Assembly: GCA_027621615.1 (NCBI GenBank)
Contig: JAQCBC010000036.1
Coordinates: 1-7,335, forward strand
Reading direction: 5' to 3'
DNA: 7,335 nt
Source of the DNA: a bacterium
Lineage (GTDB): Bacteria; Margulisbacteria; Marinamargulisbacteria; UBA6595
Shown here one piece after another: positions 1-7,335 of this stretch. The notes beneath the pieces were generated by a model, which saw only the letters and a list, made by a program, of their open reading frames with translations, searched no databases and was not told where the DNA came from. Position numbers and translations under genes: made by a program. Position 1 is the stretch's first letter; the number at the start of each line of letters is the position of its first letter.

Positions 1-709
1 CGGGCGTTTCTCCCGGGTTGAGGGGCATGCGCGCATCATCCACCATGATCCAAGTCCCATCGCGCCACACCACCGGCCGTTCTTTGGCAAAATACAACGG
101 CACAATGGGAATGTTTTCTAAATAAATGTATTGCCAAATGTCCAACTCCGTCCAATTTGATAACGGAAATACCCGAATGGACTCCCCATGCTTTTTTTTC
201 GTGTTGTATAACGACCACAACTCCGGCCGCTGATTTTTAGGATCCCACCGATGCTGGGCCGATCGAAACGAAAAAATACGCTCTTTCGCCCGTGACTTTT
301 CCTCATCCCGCCGGGCCCCACCAAAAGCGGCATCAAATTGGTGCTGATCCAAGGCCTGTTTCAAGGCTTGGGTTTTCATAATATCCGTATGAACCGCAGA
401 GCCATGCGTAAACGGCCCCACATCATTGGCAACCCCATCGGGGTTAATATGAACCAATAAATTCAAGTTGTATTCCTTGGCTAATTGCTCCCGAAACGCA
501 ATCATTTCTTTAAACTTCCACCGGGTATCAATGTGCATCACCGGAAACGGAATATCCGCCGGATAAAACGCCTTGCGTGCAATATGCAACAAAACCGACG
601 AGTCTTTTCCAATGGAATACAACATCACCGGATTGTCCGCCTCAGCCACCACCTCCCGCATAATGTGAATGCTATCCGCTTCCAATTGCTGCAAATGCGT
701 TAATGCCAT
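1..709 (-). CDS. cysD: Sulfate adenylyltransferase subunit 2 (CysD), C-terminus cut by left window edge
   Basis: CysD is the catalytic subunit of the CysDN ATP sulfurylase, which makes APS from sulfate and ATP in the cytoplasm while the GTPase CysN drives the reaction. The frame is open from an ATG at 709 to the edge and gives 236 residues; the E. coli protein has about 302, so roughly the last 65 are missing. Visible family marks are the PP-loop SIGKDSS (residues 32-38), the HIDTRWKF segment (59-66), [14 protein letters not shown] (131-144) and [11 protein letters not shown] (155-165), all close to E. coli CysD. The start is fixed by an AGGAGG site (719-724) nine bases upstream, inside the end of cysH. 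Only one base separates the cysH stop from this ATG. cysN is expected next, beyond the edge, but is not seen. Confidence 0.97.
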
Positions 710-710
710 C

Positions 711-1451
711 TCACTGACCCTCCTGTTTCTTTCGTACTACTTTACCATCCACCACATGCAACCCACATTCTTTGGTACTGGTTTCCCACCACCAACGCCC
801 TGATCGATTCGACTCCCCAGGCTGAATAGCCCGAGTGCATGGGGCACACCCAATGCTGGTATACCCCTGCGCATACAACGCATTCATGGGAATACGTTCC
901 GAGTCAACCACCGCCCACAAGTGTTCTTCGGTCCAATGAATTAATGGGTTAAACTTCGTTTTATCGTGCCCCGCATCCCATTCCGCTAAAGGCAACTGGG
1001 CCCGATCCGGGGATTGCAACCGACGCAACCCCGTAACCCAGGCATCGTATGGGGCTAATGCACGCTGCAACGGCTGTACTTTTCGGACAAAACAACACTG
1101 CTGACGCACAGCCACACTGGTATAAAATCCATTAATGCCGTGTTCCTGAACCAACGCTTCCACAGCCTGGGTGTCTGGACTGTATACTTGGTATCGGAAC
1201 CCGTAGGCTTGCTCAGTCTCCGCAAGCACTGTATAGGTTTCCGGATTCAATCGACCCGTATCCAATACAAAAATATGCGGATCCACCCCCTGCGCTTGAC
1301 AGGCCTTGACCCAATAGTGGGTTAAAACCTGGTCTTCAAGACTCAACGAAGACGCCACCACCACACGCTCCCCAAACGCATCCAAAATCCCAGCAATCGT
1401 TGTGGGTAAATCCGCCGTATCCAATGTGGTGTTAAACGCCGTTATATCCAT
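711..1451 (-). CDS. cysH: Phosphoadenylyl/adenylyl-sulfate reductase, [4Fe-4S] APS reductase type (CysH)
   Basis: This 246-residue cytoplasmic enzyme reduces activated sulfate to sulfite, using thioredoxin or glutaredoxin. The PP-loop-like SSLSLEDQV (34-42), LDTGRL (63-68) and GLRRLQS (141-147) form the nucleotide site, and KECGLH near the C-terminus carries the catalytic Cys229. A Cys pair at 119-120 and a CxxC at 202-205 are the four ligands of the [4Fe-4S] cluster. In this family that cluster marks enzymes that use APS directly (EC 1.8.4.10); E. coli-type PAPS reductases lack it. APS kinase (CysC) would then not be needed for assimilation, which is an inference. The gene begins three bases after the stop of the DUF2061 gene. 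No strong ribosome binding site precedes it, so its translation is probably coupled to that gene. Confidence 0.95.
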
Positions 1452-1454
1452 ACT

Positions 1455-1700
1455 CTAAATTTGATAATCATACGTCTTTTTGCCAAACGAAATCAGCGCC
1501 CACAATCGCTCATGCCCATAATACAATAGAATTTTTGATAAAAATTCAATGCTACCAATCGACAAGGCCATGGCCCACGTCCCGGTGATATACCAAGAAA
1601 TCAGGGTCGTGACCAACGTCGCCGTAATCCGCCACGAAAACGATTTGGCTAAACTGCGTCGATGTGTATCGCCTATGCTTTTCGTATTGTGACTTGCCAA
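1455..1700 (-). CDS. DUF2061 small membrane protein
   Basis: The product is an 81-residue protein of the DUF2061 family, recognised from the R-S-L-A-K-S-F-S-W-R-I-T stretch (residues 15-26), the IS-W-x-I-T-G segment (34-40) and the ALSIGSIEFLSKILLYYGHER region (45-65). It has two hydrophobic segments, about residues 25-39 and 43-62, so it should sit in the inner membrane. Its biochemical role is unknown. Family members are often found beside sulfate-activation and cysteine genes, and here the gene lies between sir and cysH. No ATG is available before residue 44. The best start is TTG at 1700, ten bases after a GAAGG site, which makes the gene overlap the end of sir by 28 bases. A role in sulfate or sulfite handling at the membrane is only a guess from context. 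Confidence 0.85.
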   Translation of the reverse strand: MASHNTKSIGDTHRRSLAKSFSWRITATLVTTLISWYITGTWAMALSIGSIEFLSKILLYYGHERLWALISFGKKTYDYQI

Positions 1701-3979
1701 TGGTTCTCTACCTTCTCTTTTTTCACAATGGTGTGGCCCTCTTGTTGCACCGAATTGGGCACATTTTCAATTGGTTCACCATCATCCAACAATACATCCA
1801 AACTGTCTCCAGATTTCAGAGCCTCTAAGGCTAATTTTGTTTTCACAAAGTTCATCGGACAGGCAACCCCACGAAAATCCTGGGTGACATGTTGGGCAGT
1901 ATGGCCCGATCCAGCGGCATCATCCAGCTTAAACTTTAACGAATCATCCATACCCTTATACAACGCCATCACCGCATTGGCTAATTCAACCACTGCGTCC
2001 GCATGTGGGACTAAGGCATCCGAAGATCCCAAGCCCAACAAGACCACGGCACTGTACTGTTTATCCACCAATTCGGTTTGAACAAAATGTTTTTCAAATA
2101 ATTTAAATACCTCGGTATCTGTTTTAGGGTCCAACCCACGGGTGACCAGCAACATACGCGACGTATGAAACAACAACGTTTTCAAGGCATCCGCAGGCTC
2201 TGCTGTATCGGGCAACGCTTTGATGATCTGCTTCATATTTTTTTGATCCACATCAATCATGTCAAACATACCAGCCGAACATTCCGCCGTGCCCAGCTGC
2301 TCTAGAGACAAGCGTTTTTTCGCCCCAAAGTCTGTATAAAACGACGCATCATCGGCATACGCTGGAACATCCCGATACTGGTCACACAAGGCTTTAATTA
2401 AATCAAATCCTTCTGAATCCAAATACGCATTATAGGTCGCATACTGATCTTTTTTAGCAATATAATCACGCAAAAACTGGTACACAAACTCGGGGATGGC
2501 ATGCGCCGCAATGTCCGTGACCCGTTGCGCATACTCCGTTTGCCCAGCCGCCACTTTCGCACCCGCCAAGACATTGTAGGCCGGATACAGATCCCCATCT
2601 TTTCGGCCCACTTTACCAAAAAATCCCAACTGTGCAATGTGATGCATCCCACAGGTATTGGGGCATCCCGACATGTTTAACCGGAAATCCGCAATCGCAT
2701 CAAAATCAAGATCACTCACAATCAACCGCTTTTGAATCGCTTTAGACAGCCCACGAGGCAAACAAATTCCCAACTTACAGGTTTGGGCGCCCGTACAGTT
2801 CATCATACGGCCAATAAATGCTGGCTGCTCCGACAACGTGTCCAACTGCTGGATCATGCGGTAAGCATTGCCCAAATACGCATCCGGTATGTTGCGCAAT
2901 CGGATATTTTGCGCCCGCTCGCACCGCATGGTGTTTGGCCCAAAATGATCCAAAAAGTCACACAAAATATCCGCATGATGCTTGTAAATATCCCCCAGCT
3001 TCAACGGAATCAAAATGGAGGATAGGCCCGGCTGCGATTGCGCCATCACATATCGATTTTTCCAATTCTCAAAGTCCTGCCCAGTGACCGTTTCAATAGG
3101 CAAATCCGTCGCTTGCGCCTCGTTATTTAATTCGGGCAAGACCAACGGGTCTTTCCCTTGAACCAACGCATATTCATCATGAAACAACTGCTTAAATTCT
3201 TCTTCACCAATTTTTTTCCATAAAAACTTAATGCGGTTTTGATTGCGGTTTCGACGGTTGCCATGCTTATCAAACATCGTTTTAATCGCACGGGTCACTG
3301 CATACACTTCTGTATCGGGAATCCACGCCAACAACAAATGACCCACCATGGGTTTGGCACCCATCCCACCAGAACAATAGACTTCAAACCCTTTCTGATC
3401 GCCATTCATTTTTGCCACAAACCCCAAACACGTGGCTTGTGTAAAAGATACATCATCCGGTGCCGTTGAAAATGCAATTTTAAACTTTCTAGGCAAATTC
3501 CATGAATCGGGCTCATGAATTAATCGAGTCGTCAACGCCATGGCATACGGATCCACATCAAACACATCCCCCGGACGAATCCCAGAATGCGATGGGGTCA
3601 AAATATTTCGAATGGTATTCCCACCTCCACCCCGAGTGCTTAGGCCCACGGATCGCAAGCCTTCAATAACCGTCATTAAATTTTCAATCGTCACATTGTG
3701 GACCTGAATTTCTTGCCGAGTCGTAAAATGCACTTCGCCACCACCATAGGCTTCTGCCAATTCAGCGGCCTTGCGCAGTTGCTCCGGTGTTAACCCCCCC
3801 GCTGCACACCGAATCCGAATCATATAGGTGTGATCTTGACGCTGCTCATACACCCCATGCGCCACACGAATAGCTTTAAACTTGGTGGGGTCAATGTTAC
3901 CCAATGAATAATCCACTAAATCATGAACAAATAAGGCTTGTTCTTCGGCTAATACAGGGGGGTTATCATAAAATCGCAT
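1673..3979 (-). CDS. sir: Siroheme sulfite reductase with C-terminal TusA domain
   Basis: This 768-residue protein is a nitrite/sulfite reductase hemoprotein that should reduce sulfite to sulfide with six electrons. Residues about 1-540 hold the two ferredoxin-like half-domains and siroheme domains: TTRQEIQVHN (86-95) and RGGGGNTIRN (116-125) match the siroheme-contacting regions, and Cys395, Cys401, Cys439 and Cys443 (NCTGAQTC and SGCPNTCG) ligate the [4Fe-4S]-siroheme centre. Residues about 545-685 form a mostly helical linker domain, possibly HEPN-like. Residues about 700-768 form a TusA-type sulfur-carrier domain whose Cys707 sits in CPMN rather than the usual CPxP. No flavoprotein domain is present, so the electron donor is probably ferredoxin or a separate protein. 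Nitrite reduction is the alternative, but the sulfate-assimilation neighbours and the TusA tail favour sulfite. The ATG lies one base after the hcyD stop, behind an AGGAG site (3986-3990). Confidence 0.93.
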   Translation of the reverse strand: MRFYDNPPVLAEEQALFVHDLVDYSLGNIDPTKFKAIRVAHGVYEQRQDHTYMIRIRCAAGGLTPEQLRKAAELAEAYGGGEVHFTTRQEIQVHNVTIENLMTVIEGLRSVGLSTRGGGGNTIRNILTPSHSGIRPGDVFDVDPYAMALTTRLIHEPDSWNLPRKFKIAFSTAPDDVSFTQATCLGFVAKMNGDQKGFEVYCSGGMGAKPMVGHLLLAWIPDTEVYAVTRAIKTMFDKHGNRRNRNQNRIKFLWKKIGEEEFKQLFHDEYALVQGKDPLVLPELNNEAQATDLPIETVTGQDFENWKNRYVMAQSQPGLSSILIPLKLGDIYKHHADILCDFLDHFGPNTMRCERAQNIRLRNIPDAYLGNAYRMIQQLDTLSEQPAFIGRMMNCTGAQTCKLGICLPRGLSKAIQKRLIVSDLDFDAIADFRLNMSGCPNTCGMHHIAQLGFFGKVGRKDGDLYPAYNVLAGAKVAAGQTEYAQRVTDIAAHAIPEFVYQFLRDYIAKKDQYATYNAYLDSEGFDLIKALCDQYRDVPAYADDASFYTDFGAKKRLSLEQLGTAECSAGMFDMIDVDQKNMKQIIKALPDTAEPADALKTLLFHTSRMLLVTRGLDPKTDTEVFKLFEKHFVQTELVDKQYSAVVLLGLGSSDALVPHADAVVELANAVMALYKGMDDSLKFKLDDAAGSGHTAQHVTQDFRGVACPMNFVKTKLALEALKSGDSLDVLLDDGEPIENVPNSVQQEGHTIVKKEKVENHWQVTIRKA

Positions 3980-3980
3980 A

Positions 3981-4403
3981 TTATTCTCCTACTATCTCAA
4001 GTGCTACATCATGCACGGTTATTGTGTTATCAGACTTATCAATTTGATACCCTTTAATACCCGGCACATCGGTTTGAAACGACACAATAATATAGACCAT
4101 GCTGGGGTCATTTAACAATCGCAAATCTTCTTCGGACAGTCTTGGTGGCGTTTCTGGATGCGAATGGTACACCACCTGCAAGTGTTTGCCCGCAGTGCGT
4201 GCTGATTTCAAAACCGCAAACTGATCCTCGGGCCGAAATGAAAAGTGCTCCGGACTATGATCAATATTTTCCAGGGGGTAAATGGTATCCACACAACCAT
4301 CCGACCCAGCCAAATACCCACACCCCTCATTGGGCAAGACCGTGCGCAACTCTGAAACCATGCGATCGATAACCGACTGTTTAATTTTTATTGTTTTAGT
4401 CAT
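3981..4403 (-). CDS. hcyD: JAMM/Mov34 metalloprotease, HcyD/Mec+-like
   Basis: This 140-residue protein is a zinc-dependent JAMM (MPN+) peptidase. It shows the complete motif: Glu26 in NEGCGYLAG, then His80-x-His82-x7-Ser90-x2-Asp93 in HSHPETPPRLSEED. Relatives include Mycobacterium Mec+, Pseudomonas QbsD and Wolinella HcyD. In the Wolinella pathway HcyD removes the extra C-terminal residue from the sulfur carrier and later hydrolyses the carrier-homocysteine adduct to free homocysteine. The carrier in this operon does have a residue after its glycines, so both jobs are expected here. The small size, with no other domain, fits the bacterial sulfur-carrier proteases. The ATG overlaps the hcyF stop as ATGA, and a GGAGG site (4410-4414) lies six bases upstream inside hcyF. 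The exact role is inferred from the neighbours. Confidence 0.92.
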   Translation of the reverse strand: MTKTIKIKQSVIDRMVSELRTVLPNEGCGYLAGSDGCVDTIYPLENIDHSPEHFSFRPEDQFAVLKSARTAGKHLQVVYHSHPETPPRLSEEDLRLLNDPSMVYIIVSFQTDVPGIKGYQIDKSDNTITVHDVALEIVGE

Positions 4404-5218
4404 GCTGCCCCTCCACGGCTTTTCAAATCACATACCGGCGCTTCGTAATTCACCAATTTTGTAATTGTAGGTGATTGCGAACACACCTTACACGCACTGT
4501 TTCGGCTCACTGAAATTGTTCTAAATTGCATCTGTTTCGCATTAAAACTGAGAATACGATCGGTTAACCCAGTGCCCACGCCCAACAAATATTTAATCGC
4601 CTCCGTGGCTTGGATAGTGCCCAGCATCCCCGCAATAGACCCCAACACACCGGCTTGAGAACACGTTGGCACCGCATTTTTAGGGGGCAAGTCATCAAAT
4701 ATACACCGATAACACGCATGCCCAGGTGCATAGGTAAACGTTTGCCCATCAAAGCGCAAAATACCCCCATGCGAAAACGCCTGCTTGGCCATGACACAGG
4801 CATCATTAATCAAAAACTTACTCTCAAAACTATCCGTCCCGTCTATTACAAAATCATATCCCTGCATCAACGCAAACGCATTGTGGGCTTCAAAGCGTTC
4901 ATGATATAGGGTCACGGAAACATCCGGGTTCATGGCATTAATTTTTTCCTGAGCTGATTCCGTTTTTAGCCGACCCACATCGGCAGTATAATGCGCAATC
5001 TGGCGCTGCAAATTACTCAAATCAACCCGATCCGCATCCACAATTCCCAAATGCCCCACACCAGCTGCCGCCAAGTACAACGCAATGGGGGACCCCAAAC
5101 CGCCCGCACCAATAATTAAGACACGACTAGACAACAATTTTTGCTGCCCATCGCCGCCCACATCCGATAAAATAATATGGCGAGAATATCGCTCAACTTG
5201 TGCATCACTGAATGTCAT
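4400..5218 (-). CDS. hcyF: ThiF/MoeB-family sulfur carrier adenylyltransferase, HcyF-like
   Basis: This 272-residue E1-like enzyme should use ATP to adenylate the C-terminal glycine of the sulfur carrier HcyS so that sulfide can form a thiocarboxylate. It carries the nucleotide motif GAGGLG (37-42), Asp61 and Asp63 followed by SNLQRQ (68-73), Lys85, and DGTDSFESKFLIND (126-139). Two CxxC pairs (CYRC at 169-172 and CKVC at 243-246) form the structural zinc site, and PTCSQAG (184-190) holds the conserved cysteine seen in MoeB/ThiF proteins. Its length is that of ThiF/MoeB; no rhodanese domain follows, so sulfur must come from another source, here most likely Sir. MoeB or ThiF for molybdopterin or thiamine is the alternative, but the neighbours favour HcyF. 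The ATG overlaps the metY stop as ATGA, behind GGAGG at 5223-5227. Confidence 0.93.
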   Translation of the reverse strand: MTFSDAQVERYSRHIILSDVGGDGQQKLLSSRVLIIGAGGLGSPIALYLAAAGVGHLGIVDADRVDLSNLQRQIAHYTADVGRLKTESAQEKINAMNPDVSVTLYHERFEAHNAFALMQGYDFVIDGTDSFESKFLINDACVMAKQAFSHGGILRFDGQTFTYAPGHACYRCIFDDLPPKNAVPTCSQAGVLGSIAGMLGTIQATEAIKYLLGVGTGLTDRILSFNAKQMQFRTISVSRNSACKVCSQSPTITKLVNYEAPVCDLKSRGGAA

Positions 5219-6468
5219 AGTACCTCCAACGCTTGTGTTAAATCGGCTATTAAGTCCGCCTCGGACTCCAAACCAACCGATAATCGAATCAAATCATCAT
5301 AGACACCGGCTTCGGTCGCTTGCTCATCAGTCAAATCCCGATAAATTGTTCGCCGTGGGCATACTGCCAACGTCTTGGCATCGCCCAAATTGACCAAACA
5401 CTGAATCACAGTCAGCGCATTTAAAAAGGCATAGGCCCGTGCTTTACTGCCCAGTCTCAGTGTCACCATACCGCCATAACGCCCACCAAATTGACGGGTG
5501 GCCACCGCATGGTCCGCATGGGTGGACAGCCCCGGATATTGCGTGACCGTAACCGCAGGGTGCTGATCCAAATACGTGGCCACGGCCATTGCGTTGCTGC
5601 AATGCCGATCCATACGCAAGCTCAATGTCTCAACCCCTTTTAAGGTTAAAAATGCATTTTGAGCCGCCAAACTATTCCCGGTTGTACCACGTACTTTTTT
5701 AAACGCAGCCATACCCCCCAATTCCCCCAACTTACCAACGGCTGTCTTTAAAATATCCGGCGAATTGGAAATGCAATTGGGCCAATGAAACAGGCCAGTG
5801 TCCACAATGGCGCCCCCAATCGCCAACCCGCCCCCACATAAATATTTTGTCGTCGCTACCGTAACAATGTCGATGCCCAAGGACTGCGATTGAGCCAAAT
5901 AGGGCGTCACAAAAGTGGTATCAACCACCAAAGGAATGCCATGGGCATGGGCCACATCGGCAATCGCACGAATATCCGGCACATCCAACTTGGGATTGCC
6001 AATGGCCTCTAAAAACACAAATCGGGTGCGCGCATCCAGCGCAGCTGCATACCCGGACACATCCGTACTATCCACAAACCGAACATCAATGCCCATCGAG
6101 GCAATAACCCCATGAAACAAATAATACGTACTGCCAAACAAGCTTTTGGCGACCACAACATTGTCTCCCGATTGGGCCAAGGTACAAAACACCGTCATAA
6201 TCGCCGCCATACCCGAAGACACACACACCGCTCCACGCCCCAATTCCAACGCCGTTAAGCGTTGCTCCAAGGCCGCTACCGTGGGATTGCCCGTACGTGA
6301 ATAATAAAACCCGGGCTGACGCCCATTAAAAATAGCCTCTAACGTATCCGGATCATGCGCAAATCCTGCTGACTGGTAAATCGGCACATTGGTCGCCCCT
6401 GTATCCGAATCCGGCGTATATCCGCTGTGAATGGCGCGGGTATCAAAAGACCAAGCATCCCCGTTCAT
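5215..6468 (-). CDS. metY: PLP-dependent O-acetylhomoserine sulfhydrylase family (MetY-like homocysteine synthase)
   Basis: This 417-residue cytoplasmic enzyme belongs to the Cys/Met metabolism PLP family. It should replace the acetyl group of O-acetylhomoserine with sulfur; in the Wolinella-type pathway the donor is the HcyS thiocarboxylate. Visible sites are YSRTGNPT (56-63), SSGMAAI (84-90), Asp183 in VVDTTFVTPYL, the PLP lysine Lys208 in ATTKYLCGGG, NLGDAKTL (360-367), and LIRLSVG with the substrate-binding Arg395. Compared with ordinary MetY, the GHG after the lysine is GGG and the usual HPAST segment reads CPRRT. The ATG at 6468 was chosen over an upstream in-frame TTG at 6510, which would lie inside hcyS and ahead of the ribosome binding site. 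The gap to hcyS is seven bases. O-succinylhomoserine sulfhydrylase or cystathionine synthase are less likely alternatives. Confidence 0.93.
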   Translation of the reverse strand: MNGDAWSFDTRAIHSGYTPDSDTGATNVPIYQSAGFAHDPDTLEAIFNGRQPGFYYSRTGNPTVAALEQRLTALELGRGAVCVSSGMAAIMTVFCTLAQSGDNVVVAKSLFGSTYYLFHGVIASMGIDVRFVDSTDVSGYAAALDARTRFVFLEAIGNPKLDVPDIRAIADVAHAHGIPLVVDTTFVTPYLAQSQSLGIDIVTVATTKYLCGGGLAIGGAIVDTGLFHWPNCISNSPDILKTAVGKLGELGGMAAFKKVRGTTGNSLAAQNAFLTLKGVETLSLRMDRHCSNAMAVATYLDQHPAVTVTQYPGLSTHADHAVATRQFGGRYGGMVTLRLGSKARAYAFLNALTVIQCLVNLGDAKTLAVCPRRTIYRDLTDEQATEAGVYDDLIRLSVGLESEADLIADLTQALEVL

Positions 6469-6481
6469 TGATCGATCAATG
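6466..6481. promoter_or_regulatory. 16-bp perfect palindrome over the hcyS stop and metY start
   Basis: The sequence CATTGATCGATCAATG is its own reverse complement. In the mRNA its first half holds the last hcyS codon (CAT) and stop (TGA), and its second half ends in the metY ATG. It can fold into a 6-bp stem with a TCGA loop that hides the metY start codon. The GGAGG site for metY (6483-6487) lies 14 bases from the ATG, longer than the 4 to 9 bases at the other junctions with a clear site. A ribosome finishing hcyS would open the stem, so coupled translation is a reasonable inference. A DNA-binding operator is less likely so deep in the operon. Confidence 0.4.
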
Positions 6482-6682
6482 GCCTCCACCCATAAAATAC
6501 AAAAATTCAATCACATCCCCATCCTGAATTAATGTGACATCAAAATCAGCTCGATTGAGCATTTTATCGTTGCACTGCACAGATACCATGTCGGGCATTT
6601 TAACCGACTCCTCGGTCAACAATTCAGTAATACTTGTAGCATTCACTGTTTTTTCTTCACCATTAATTACAACTTTTGCCAT
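6476..6682 (-). CDS. hcyS: ThiS-like sulfur carrier protein with removable C-terminal residue (HcyS-like)
   Basis: This 68-residue protein has the length and pattern of a ubiquitin-fold (beta-grasp) sulfur carrier: a basic first strand, NGEEKTV near the N-terminus, the LIQDGDVIEF turn and strand (51-60; DGD at 54-56), and a C-terminal MGGGH. Lined up with E. coli ThiS from the DGD, the third glycine (Gly67) falls on the terminal glycine of ThiS. His68 is therefore an extra residue that must come off before activation. This matches Wolinella HcyS, where an extra Ala is cut off by HcyD, and the presence of a JAMM protease gene three genes downstream. The ATG follows AAGGAG (6690-6695) by seven bases. 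ThiS for thiamine is unlikely because no thiamine genes are nearby and the tail is blocked. Confidence 0.9.
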   Translation of the reverse strand: MAKVVINGEEKTVNATSITELLTEESVKMPDMVSVQCNDKMLNRADFDVTLIQDGDVIEFLYFMGGGH

Positions 6683-6708: not shown

Positions 6709-7335
6709 TTATTGATCAAACAACACCGTGCTGAGATACCGCTCACCCGTATCGCAAATGATACACACAATGGTTTTTCCTTTGAATTCTGGGCGTTTGG
6801 CCAATTCAACGGCGGCATGCACATTAGCCCCCGATGAAATTCCAGACAAAATTCCTTCCGTTCGTGCCAAATATCGACCCATGCCCAATGCATCGTCGTT
6901 GCGAACCGTCAAAACTTCATCCAACACCGTTCGATCCAAATTATCGGGTATAAATCCCGCTCCAATACCTTGAATCATATGCGGTCCTGGTGCCTGCCCG
7001 GAAATGACAGCTGAATCTGCAGGCTCAACCCCCACAATGTGAATACGGGGCTGATACCGCTTCAACACAGACCCCACACCACTCACTGTTCCACCGGTGC
7101 CAACCCCCGCAACAAACGCATCAATCACACCACCGGTATCGCGCCAAATTTCTTCCGCTGTGGTATCCCGATGCTTTTGCGGATTGGCGGGGTTTTTGAA
7201 TTGCTGAGGCATAAAGGATCCCGGCGTTTTTTCCACCAACTCCTCAGCGGTCTGAATAGCTCCCGCCATACCCAAATGACCCGGTGTTAACACAACATTG
7301 GCTCCATAGGCTCTTAAAATGGCCCGACGTTCAAT
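6709..7335 (-). CDS. cysK: Cysteine synthase A (O-acetylserine sulfhydrylase), N-terminus cut by right window edge
   Basis: The frame is open to the right edge and gives the last 208 residues; full CysK proteins are about 305-325 residues, so about a third, including the PLP lysine, lies outside. The visible part starts IERRAILRAYGANVVLTPG and continues with NPANPQKH, the GVGTGGT loop that binds the PLP phosphate, VEPADSAVISG, GPHMIQGIGAGFIP, GISSGAN and a terminal TGERYLSTVLF. These match CysK rather than CysM-type enzymes; Mycobacterium CysM, which takes sulfur from the thiocarboxylate carrier CysO, differs in this half. The protein ends within a few residues of the YLST motif, without the longer tail of the E. 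coli enzyme. It would make cysteine from O-acetylserine and sulfide. A GTG at 7293 is internal and is not the start. Confidence 0.95.
   Translation of the reverse strand: MERRAILRAYGANVVLTPGHLGMAGAIQTAEELVEKTPGSFMPQQFKNPANPQKHRDTTAEEIWRDTGGVIDAFVAGVGTGGTVSGVGSVLKRYQPRIHIVGVEPADSAVISGQAPGPHMIQGIGAGFIPDNLDRTVLDEVLTVRNDDALGMGRYLARTEGILSGISSGANVHAAVELAKRPEFKGKTIVCIICDTGERYLSTVLFDQ

Follow-up and report, generated by a model that had tools for sequence, protein, structure and literature searches.

A sulfate-assimilation gene row of a Margulisbacteria genome holding a HcyS/MetY/E1/JAMM cassette with a predicted role in homocysteine synthesis from carrier-bound sulfur

Homocysteine is the precursor of methionine, and a route that forms it with sulfur held on a small ubiquitin-like carrier protein, in place of free sulfide, has to our knowledge, and judging from passages that cite the work, been shown biochemically in one organism so far, Wolinella. 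The components of this pathway, HcyS, HcyF, HcyD, MetY and Sir, are described in such citing passages (PMC5764234, PMC6225789, PMC6271081). The gene set had already been listed in row 4e of Table 1 of Iyer et al. 2006, where, in the available parts of that paper, the operons combine a ThiS-like protein, a JAB peptidase, an E1 without a rhodanese domain, SirA, sulfite reductase, O-acetylhomoserine (OAH) sulfhydrylase, 3'-phosphoadenylyl sulfate (PAPS) reductase and ATP sulfurylase (PMC1779556). Here we describe a 7,335-nucleotide stretch of contig JAQCBC010000036.1 from a member of the Marinamargulisbacteria (the window), which consists of one tightly packed minus-strand row: a partial cysK, hcyS, metY, E1, JAMM, sir-tusA, DUF2061, cysH and a partial cysD. 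This sulfate-assimilation row holds a HcyS/MetY/E1/JAMM cassette and is probably used to make homocysteine with the thiocarboxylate sulfur of HcyS.

The window resembles the Wolinella system in having carrier, E1, JAMM, MetY and Sir together, but differs from it in the presence of cysK in the block and in the fusion of TusA to Sir. Row 4e rules out that the gene set is new; the available parts of PMC1779556 describe a SirA protein and ThiS-sulfite reductase fusions, not a Sir-TusA fusion, and row 4e as seen there names neither Margulisbacteria nor cysteine synthase. Among the open-licence papers searched no description was found of the block in Margulisbacteria, nor of a HcyS-MetY or HcyS-CysK fusion. 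The locus is thus a known kind of system, well preserved, in a new lineage, and the new handles are a MetY signature and natural fusions.

The first-pass annotation had proposed four consecutive cassette genes followed directly by sir, and all were found on the minus strand where it had placed them, with a single base between the JAMM stop and sir. The gene hcyS (6476..6682) encodes a ThiS-family sulfur carrier of 68 amino acids (aa) with the C-terminus YFMGGG-H (PF02597, 34.5 bits; TIGR01683, 51.7 bits; each above cut-off), whose best PDB relative was 2K5P/3CWI. The 417-aa product of metY (5215..6468) is a cassette-type homologue of OAH sulfhydrylase (PF01053, 2e-116), assigned by tree and signature, which lacks the PDPxYHG loop and carries Phe111; the ATG at 6468 was preferred as its start over a TTG at 6510 that falls inside hcyS. 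The HcyF role is assigned to an E1-like adenylating enzyme of 272 aa without a rhodanese domain and with Cys186 (4400..5218; PF00899, 3e-80; 17-row alignment), and the HcyD role to a JAMM/Prok-JAB metallopeptidase of 140 aa with Glu26, His80, His82, Ser90 and Asp93 (3981..4403; PF14464, 5e-21). From cysK onward the intergenic gaps were 26, 7, -4, -4, 1, -28, 3 and 1 bases, the -28 between sir and DUF2061 resting on the TTG start chosen for DUF2061, and the row would appear to form one operon. The gene order given by the first-pass annotation stood as far as it went, but it had omitted cysK, 26 bases upstream of hcyS, and the TusA domain that ends sir, both of which bear on the origin and destination of the sulfur.

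The prediction is based on gene content, gene order, conservation, active-site residues and MetY subfamily, which are direct observations. In the proposed pathway CysD, CysH and Sir would reduce sulfate to sulfide, and the TusA domain fused to Sir would likely hand sulfur on as a persulfide. JAMM would likely trim HcyS at MGGG, after which E1 would activate the freed glycine by adenylation and then replace adenosine monophosphate with sulfur. MetY would move the carrier sulfur onto activated homoserine. The neighbouring CysK would form cysteine, drawing on either free sulfide or HcyS.

Phylogenetic trees constructed using MetY showed that cassette-linked enzymes (42 rows, including PDB 3RI6, which we take to be Wolinella MetY) and free-standing enzymes (41 rows) were separated by one branch. 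Its Shimodaira-Hasegawa-like approximate likelihood ratio (SH-aLRT) support was 96 in a quick 122-row tree, in which a fusion protein and three PDB chains joined the 118 MetY rows that remained of 125 after exclusion of seven (six shorter than 390 aa and one duplicate, L013). In a careful 109-row tree, from which 13 of 39 contig-edge rows had been left out, this branch had support values of 98/87 and was found in 99% of 200 bootstrap trees. The tree is unrooted, so that the split is one side of a branch and not a proven clade. L129_3248, the product of a second metY close to a cassette, was first labelled as cassette by a 6-kb rule and was moved to the others post hoc after its tree position; counted as cassette, with Wolinella as its own group, the labels required three changes on the tree, and one change once it was relabelled and 3RI6 counted as cassette. 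The comparison with the Wolinella enzyme that the first-pass annotation had suggested placed 3RI6 on the cassette side with the window MetY, a further likeness between the two systems, but the window MetY lay outside the 3RI6 subclade and the rows of both formed long branches.

Alignment of the MetY sequences revealed a signature that follows this split. A nine-residue loop was absent and a Phe present in all 42 cassette rows, whereas 40 of the 41 others had the loop and a Tyr, the sole exception being L078. The loop is PDPSYHGVS, residues 242-250 of what we take to be the T. maritima enzyme (7KB0), and the Tyr is Tyr113 there and Phe111 in the window. This Tyr presumably corresponds to the one that stacks against the cofactor of methionine gamma-lyase, and Phe also occupies the position in O-succinylhomoserine sulfhydrylases. 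Among the 39 contig-edge rows, counted apart, 32 had loop and Tyr, six had Phe and no loop, and one had Tyr and no loop. The signature separates the two sampled MetY groups, no more. The MetY of three Desulfobulbaceae stretches (L078, L081 and L060) carried the cassette signature with no cassette in the stretch, L060 and L081 being cut by a contig end. The MetY of L054, from a metagenome-assembled genome record titled Rickettsia typhi, grouped with Burkholderiales, and the title is probably wrong.

The other cassette proteins retained their expected active-site residues. The window HcyS ends in YFMGGGH, that is MGGG and one residue, and among 34 HcyS rows 32 had residues after MGGG, L112 had none and L130 lacked MGGG. 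Cys186, by analogy presumably the catalytic Cys of E1, was invariant in all 17 aligned rows, and PF00899 was the only domain of this protein. The JAMM residues Glu26, His80, His82, Ser90 and Asp93 were invariant in 15 of 15 rows, leaving the metal site intact. Away from the cassette lies the gene of another JAMM protein, about 191 aa long (L156 1245-1817, G000:C153), and proteins of that size class, likewise apart from the cassette, were present in 24 of the 27 genomes of the class.

Natural fusion proteins with HcyS at the N-terminus comprised at least 12 HcyS-MetY (P0005, P0007-P0013 and P0015-P0018), three HcyS-CysK (P0001, P0002 and P0004) and two HcyS-E1 (P0006 and P0014) proteins; these counts are lower bounds, since no more than 52, 9 and 50 candidates were scored when the carrier portion of fusion proteins served as query. 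A further match, P0003, had the carrier at the C-terminus. N-terminal HcyS-CysK fusions were also found in 10 of 74 genomes of the phylum, possibly overlapping with those from the protein searches, and a JAMM gene lay within the fetched stretch of nine of these ten genomes, the tenth stretch being a 7-kb contig. The junction was MGGG in 27 of 27 fusions (17 from protein searches and 10 from genomes). Such fusions would need a cut that exposes the terminal glycine and frees the carrier, and cleavage of fused ThiS or MoaD by JAB was proposed in general terms in the available parts of PMC1779556. The HcyS-MetY fusion hints at MetY as the partner of the carrier. The assignment to the HcyS/HcyF/HcyD/MetY type made by the first-pass annotation is supported by the position of the Wolinella enzyme in the MetY tree, by the HcyS-MetY fusions and by the invariant active-site residues.

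Conservation of the block was analysed in 27 genomes of the class, including the source genome (908,703 bases, 77.22% complete), to which the nearest genomes searched are related at class level only. The search for the same gene order proposed in the first-pass annotation showed that cysK-hcyS-metY-E1-JAMM was kept in 16 of the 26 other genomes (loci L112-L127), or 17 of 27 with the source, and the recurrence of this five-gene order argues that the block is not due to chance. The earlier guess that the order is a separate lineage held, as it forms its own lineage within one class. A Sir-TusA fusion followed the block in 11 of the 16 relatives, three of which (L122, L126 and L127) had a JAMM-sir gap of 0.6-1 kb; in the other five the contig ended (L119 and L125), Sir was present as two frames without a TusA match (L117) or DUF2061 followed JAMM (L123 and L124). 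The protein encoded in the gap of L122 (5022-6014) has 331 aa and no Pfam match. In locus L112 cysK is preceded by a Rrf2-type regulator, and cysD is followed by a CysN-like GTPase. A further class genome, G006 (L174), carried a HcyS-MetY-E1-JAMM cassette whose MetY fell in the Wolinella subclade, and therefore two versions of the system occur within one class. Outside the phylum the four-gene set was found in other orders in Verrucomicrobiota, Kiritimatiellota, Geobacteraceae and Bacillota, among the best 80 of at least 547 MetY relatives, the collection scan being a sample.

Several observations weigh against homocysteine synthesis from carrier-bound sulfur. Among curated NCBIfam models, the carrier exceeded the ThiS cut-off and E1 that of the MoeB subfamily (278 versus 266 bits), while MetY, JAMM and Sir reached no curated family cut-off; Sir was nearest to the NirA family, and that Sir-TusA reduces sulfite is suggested by its neighbour genes. 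MetX was not found in the source genome at its 77% completeness, one weak match at an edge being a short alpha/beta-hydrolase-like fragment, and MetA was found in none of the 27 class genomes; the acceptor substrate is therefore putative here. Strong MetX matches were present in 16 of the 27 class genomes; of the 16 relatives carrying the block, 11 had one and five did not. All these matches were below the 500-bit cut-off, which none of 14 controls reached either. The HcyS of class genomes G015 and G013 stops exactly at GGG and a JAMM gene is nevertheless present in the G015 block, so tail trimming is not the sole use of JAMM there. ThiG is present in the source genome, and no second ThiS was found in the 77% of it available. 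Finally, the window MetY was nearer to the T. maritima OAH sulfhydrylase (331.9 bits, 43%), its best PDB match, than to Wolinella MetY (296.5 bits, 41%). As MetY belongs to the same family as enzymes using free sulfide, it could be an ordinary sulfhydrylase of that kind which happens to share the row with a carrier that serves another purpose, but its separate subfamily, the clean signature common to Wolinella MetY and the 12 HcyS-MetY fusions make this improbable.

The source of the sulfur in the predicted homocysteine route was approached through sir-tusA (1673..3979, minus strand), whose 768-aa product combines a siroheme sulfite/nitrite-reductase-family protein with a C-terminal TusA domain at residues 701-767 (PF03460, PF01077 and PF01206). 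In 17 aligned Sir-TusA proteins Cys395, Cys401, Cys439 and Cys443, the spacing of which we take to mark the siroheme-cluster site, were invariant, as were Cys567 (ECxxG) and Cys707 in the TusA motif CPMNFVK. The predicted structure (mean predicted local distance difference test score 86.2) showed a NirA-like reductase, a helical region at 569-676, a loose linker at 678-693 and a TusA fold, and its best fold match was M. tuberculosis NirA. Sulfur may pass from siroheme through Cys567 and Cys707 to E1, and the available parts of PMC1779556 propose SirA as a stand-in for rhodanese in such operons. Downstream lie, on the same strand, DUF2061, a small membrane protein (1455..1700; PF09834), cysH, an APS (adenylyl sulfate)/PAPS reductase (711..1451; PF01507; NF002537 above cut-off), and cysD, the small subunit of sulfate adenylyltransferase (2..709; TIGR02039 above cut-off), whose 3' end is past the window.

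At the other end of the row, cysK (6709..7335, minus strand) is the 3' part of a cysteine synthase A type gene cut by the window edge (PF00291), its 208-aa part scoring 310 bits with TIGR01139 and missing the cut-off of 351. It was typed as CysK, not CysM, and cysK adjoins hcyS in all 16 class relatives with the block. In the CysK tree (30 cassette versus 30 other rows) the cassette label was scattered, with six changes of which at least five were forced; 5 of 72 rows were omitted (two duplicates and three long frames), and the window was represented by its 208-aa part. L036, being identical to L121, was dropped. This scatter rules out CysK as a cassette-specific subfamily, and since the MetY split was clean, MetY and not CysK diverged with the cassette. 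One carrier may nevertheless feed both enzymes, so that cysteine and homocysteine would both derive from protein-bound sulfur. The constant adjacency of cysK and hcyS, the HcyS-CysK fusions in the phylum, and the lack of a cassette-type MetY in 8 of the 10 HcyS-CysK stretches (6.7-19 kb, some cut by a contig end) point in this direction, but the enzyme type and the absence of a CysK subfamily do not, and a cleaved fusion may simply ensure equal amounts; we propose such sharing only tentatively. In seven of the ten HcyS-CysK stretches (L238-L244; L240 7604-8827, plus strand) a 408-aa threonine-synthase-like protein stood in the place of MetY; it was absent from the two with a cassette-type MetY, and one stretch was cut short. 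This protein could act on O-phosphohomoserine as a homocysteine synthase, or be a plain ThrC (it exceeds the TIGR00260 cut-off).

The CysO/CysM/Mec system of Mycobacterium, presumably the subject of rows 4c and 4d in the table of Iyer et al. 2006, likewise has a thiocarboxylate carrier, a JAMM protein and a pyridoxal-phosphate enzyme, whereas the window has a CysK and not a CysM type, MetY, and an E1 without a rhodanese domain. With carrier, E1 and JAMM close to a cysteine synthase, the window could in principle be of this kind, the carrier serving cysteine alone and JAMM freeing cysteine from the carrier adduct. A separate system of that appearance (carrier, JAMM and a longer E1 of 383-395 aa) was however found in class genomes G012, G020 and G022, alongside the Hcy cassette, and also in G018. 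Both such stretches read (L160 of G018 and L181 of G022) held a cysteine synthase, that of G022 being CysM-like by best model, below the cut-off, and that of G018 grouping with it. The cassette E1 lacks the extra length and MetY is present, and a CysO-type function of the window is very hard to sustain.

Thiazole synthesis of the ThiS/ThiF/ThiG type was also weighed, and HcyS exceeds the NCBIfam ThiS cut-off. The window contains no thi gene, and it has a JAMM gene, which is absent from thiamine operons according to the available parts of PMC1779556. Full-length ThiG was found in 21 of the 27 class genomes; in the source it lies on another contig than the cassette, beside a ThiH-like radical SAM (S-adenosylmethionine) protein with no ThiS there. 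In this 77%-complete genome hcyS was the sole ThiS match (by PF02597 and by a profile built from 12 further ThiS sequences found in the class), and no full-length ThiF-family gene besides the cassette E1 was found. Full-length E1 matches (above 200 bits) in the class were those of the cassette or longer frames of 383-429 aa. Sixteen genomes had ThiG together with a full-length E1, and in 11 of them the cassette E1 was the only such enzyme. G013 and G015 have a mid-contig lepB without thiS. On the other side, 15 of the 26 classmates have a separate ThiS, 14 of them beside lepB, and in the source genome only 41 bases separate the lepB match from the end of its contig, so a neighbouring thiS may just lie outside the assembled sequence; the sole ThiS was for this reason dropped as proof of a thiazole role. 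In a main role in thiazole synthesis MetY, Sir and the fusions would be left unexplained, and we regard service of the carrier and E1 to ThiG, as an additional or main task, as possible but doubtful. Mycobacterial MoeZR is reportedly a precedent for a shared E1. The first-pass annotation had named thiamine and molybdopterin synthesis as the uses that would tell against it; thiamine may be an extra role, since the genome, at 77% completeness, has ThiG but yielded neither a further ThiS nor a further full-length ThiF. Molybdopterin was rejected, as the search for MoaE gave no match in the source genome (77% complete) and one among the 27 genomes of the class, yet E1 exceeds the MoeB cut-off. Most of the lepB-linked ThiS read (L158, L162, L163-L173 and L183-L202, from 14 class genomes) have residues past GGG, and these may need a peptidase too.

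A wider scheme, which we consider unlikely, would make HcyS a sulfur hub. Sir-TusA would load one carrier without release of sulfide, and the carrier would supply MetY for homocysteine, CysK for cysteine and, by way of the sole E1, ThiG for thiazole; sister lineages would use other acceptors, up to the threonine-synthase-like enzyme replacing MetY and forming homocysteine from O-phosphohomoserine.

For the preferred reading, homocysteine synthesis from sulfur bound to HcyS, the absence of the PDPxYHG loop together with Phe in place of Tyr provides a testable discriminator between carrier-dependent MetY and the free-sulfide enzymes, which are alike in database annotation. The natural HcyS-MetY, HcyS-CysK and HcyS-E1 fusions offer direct substrates with which the cleavage site of JAMM and the clients of the carrier may be established.

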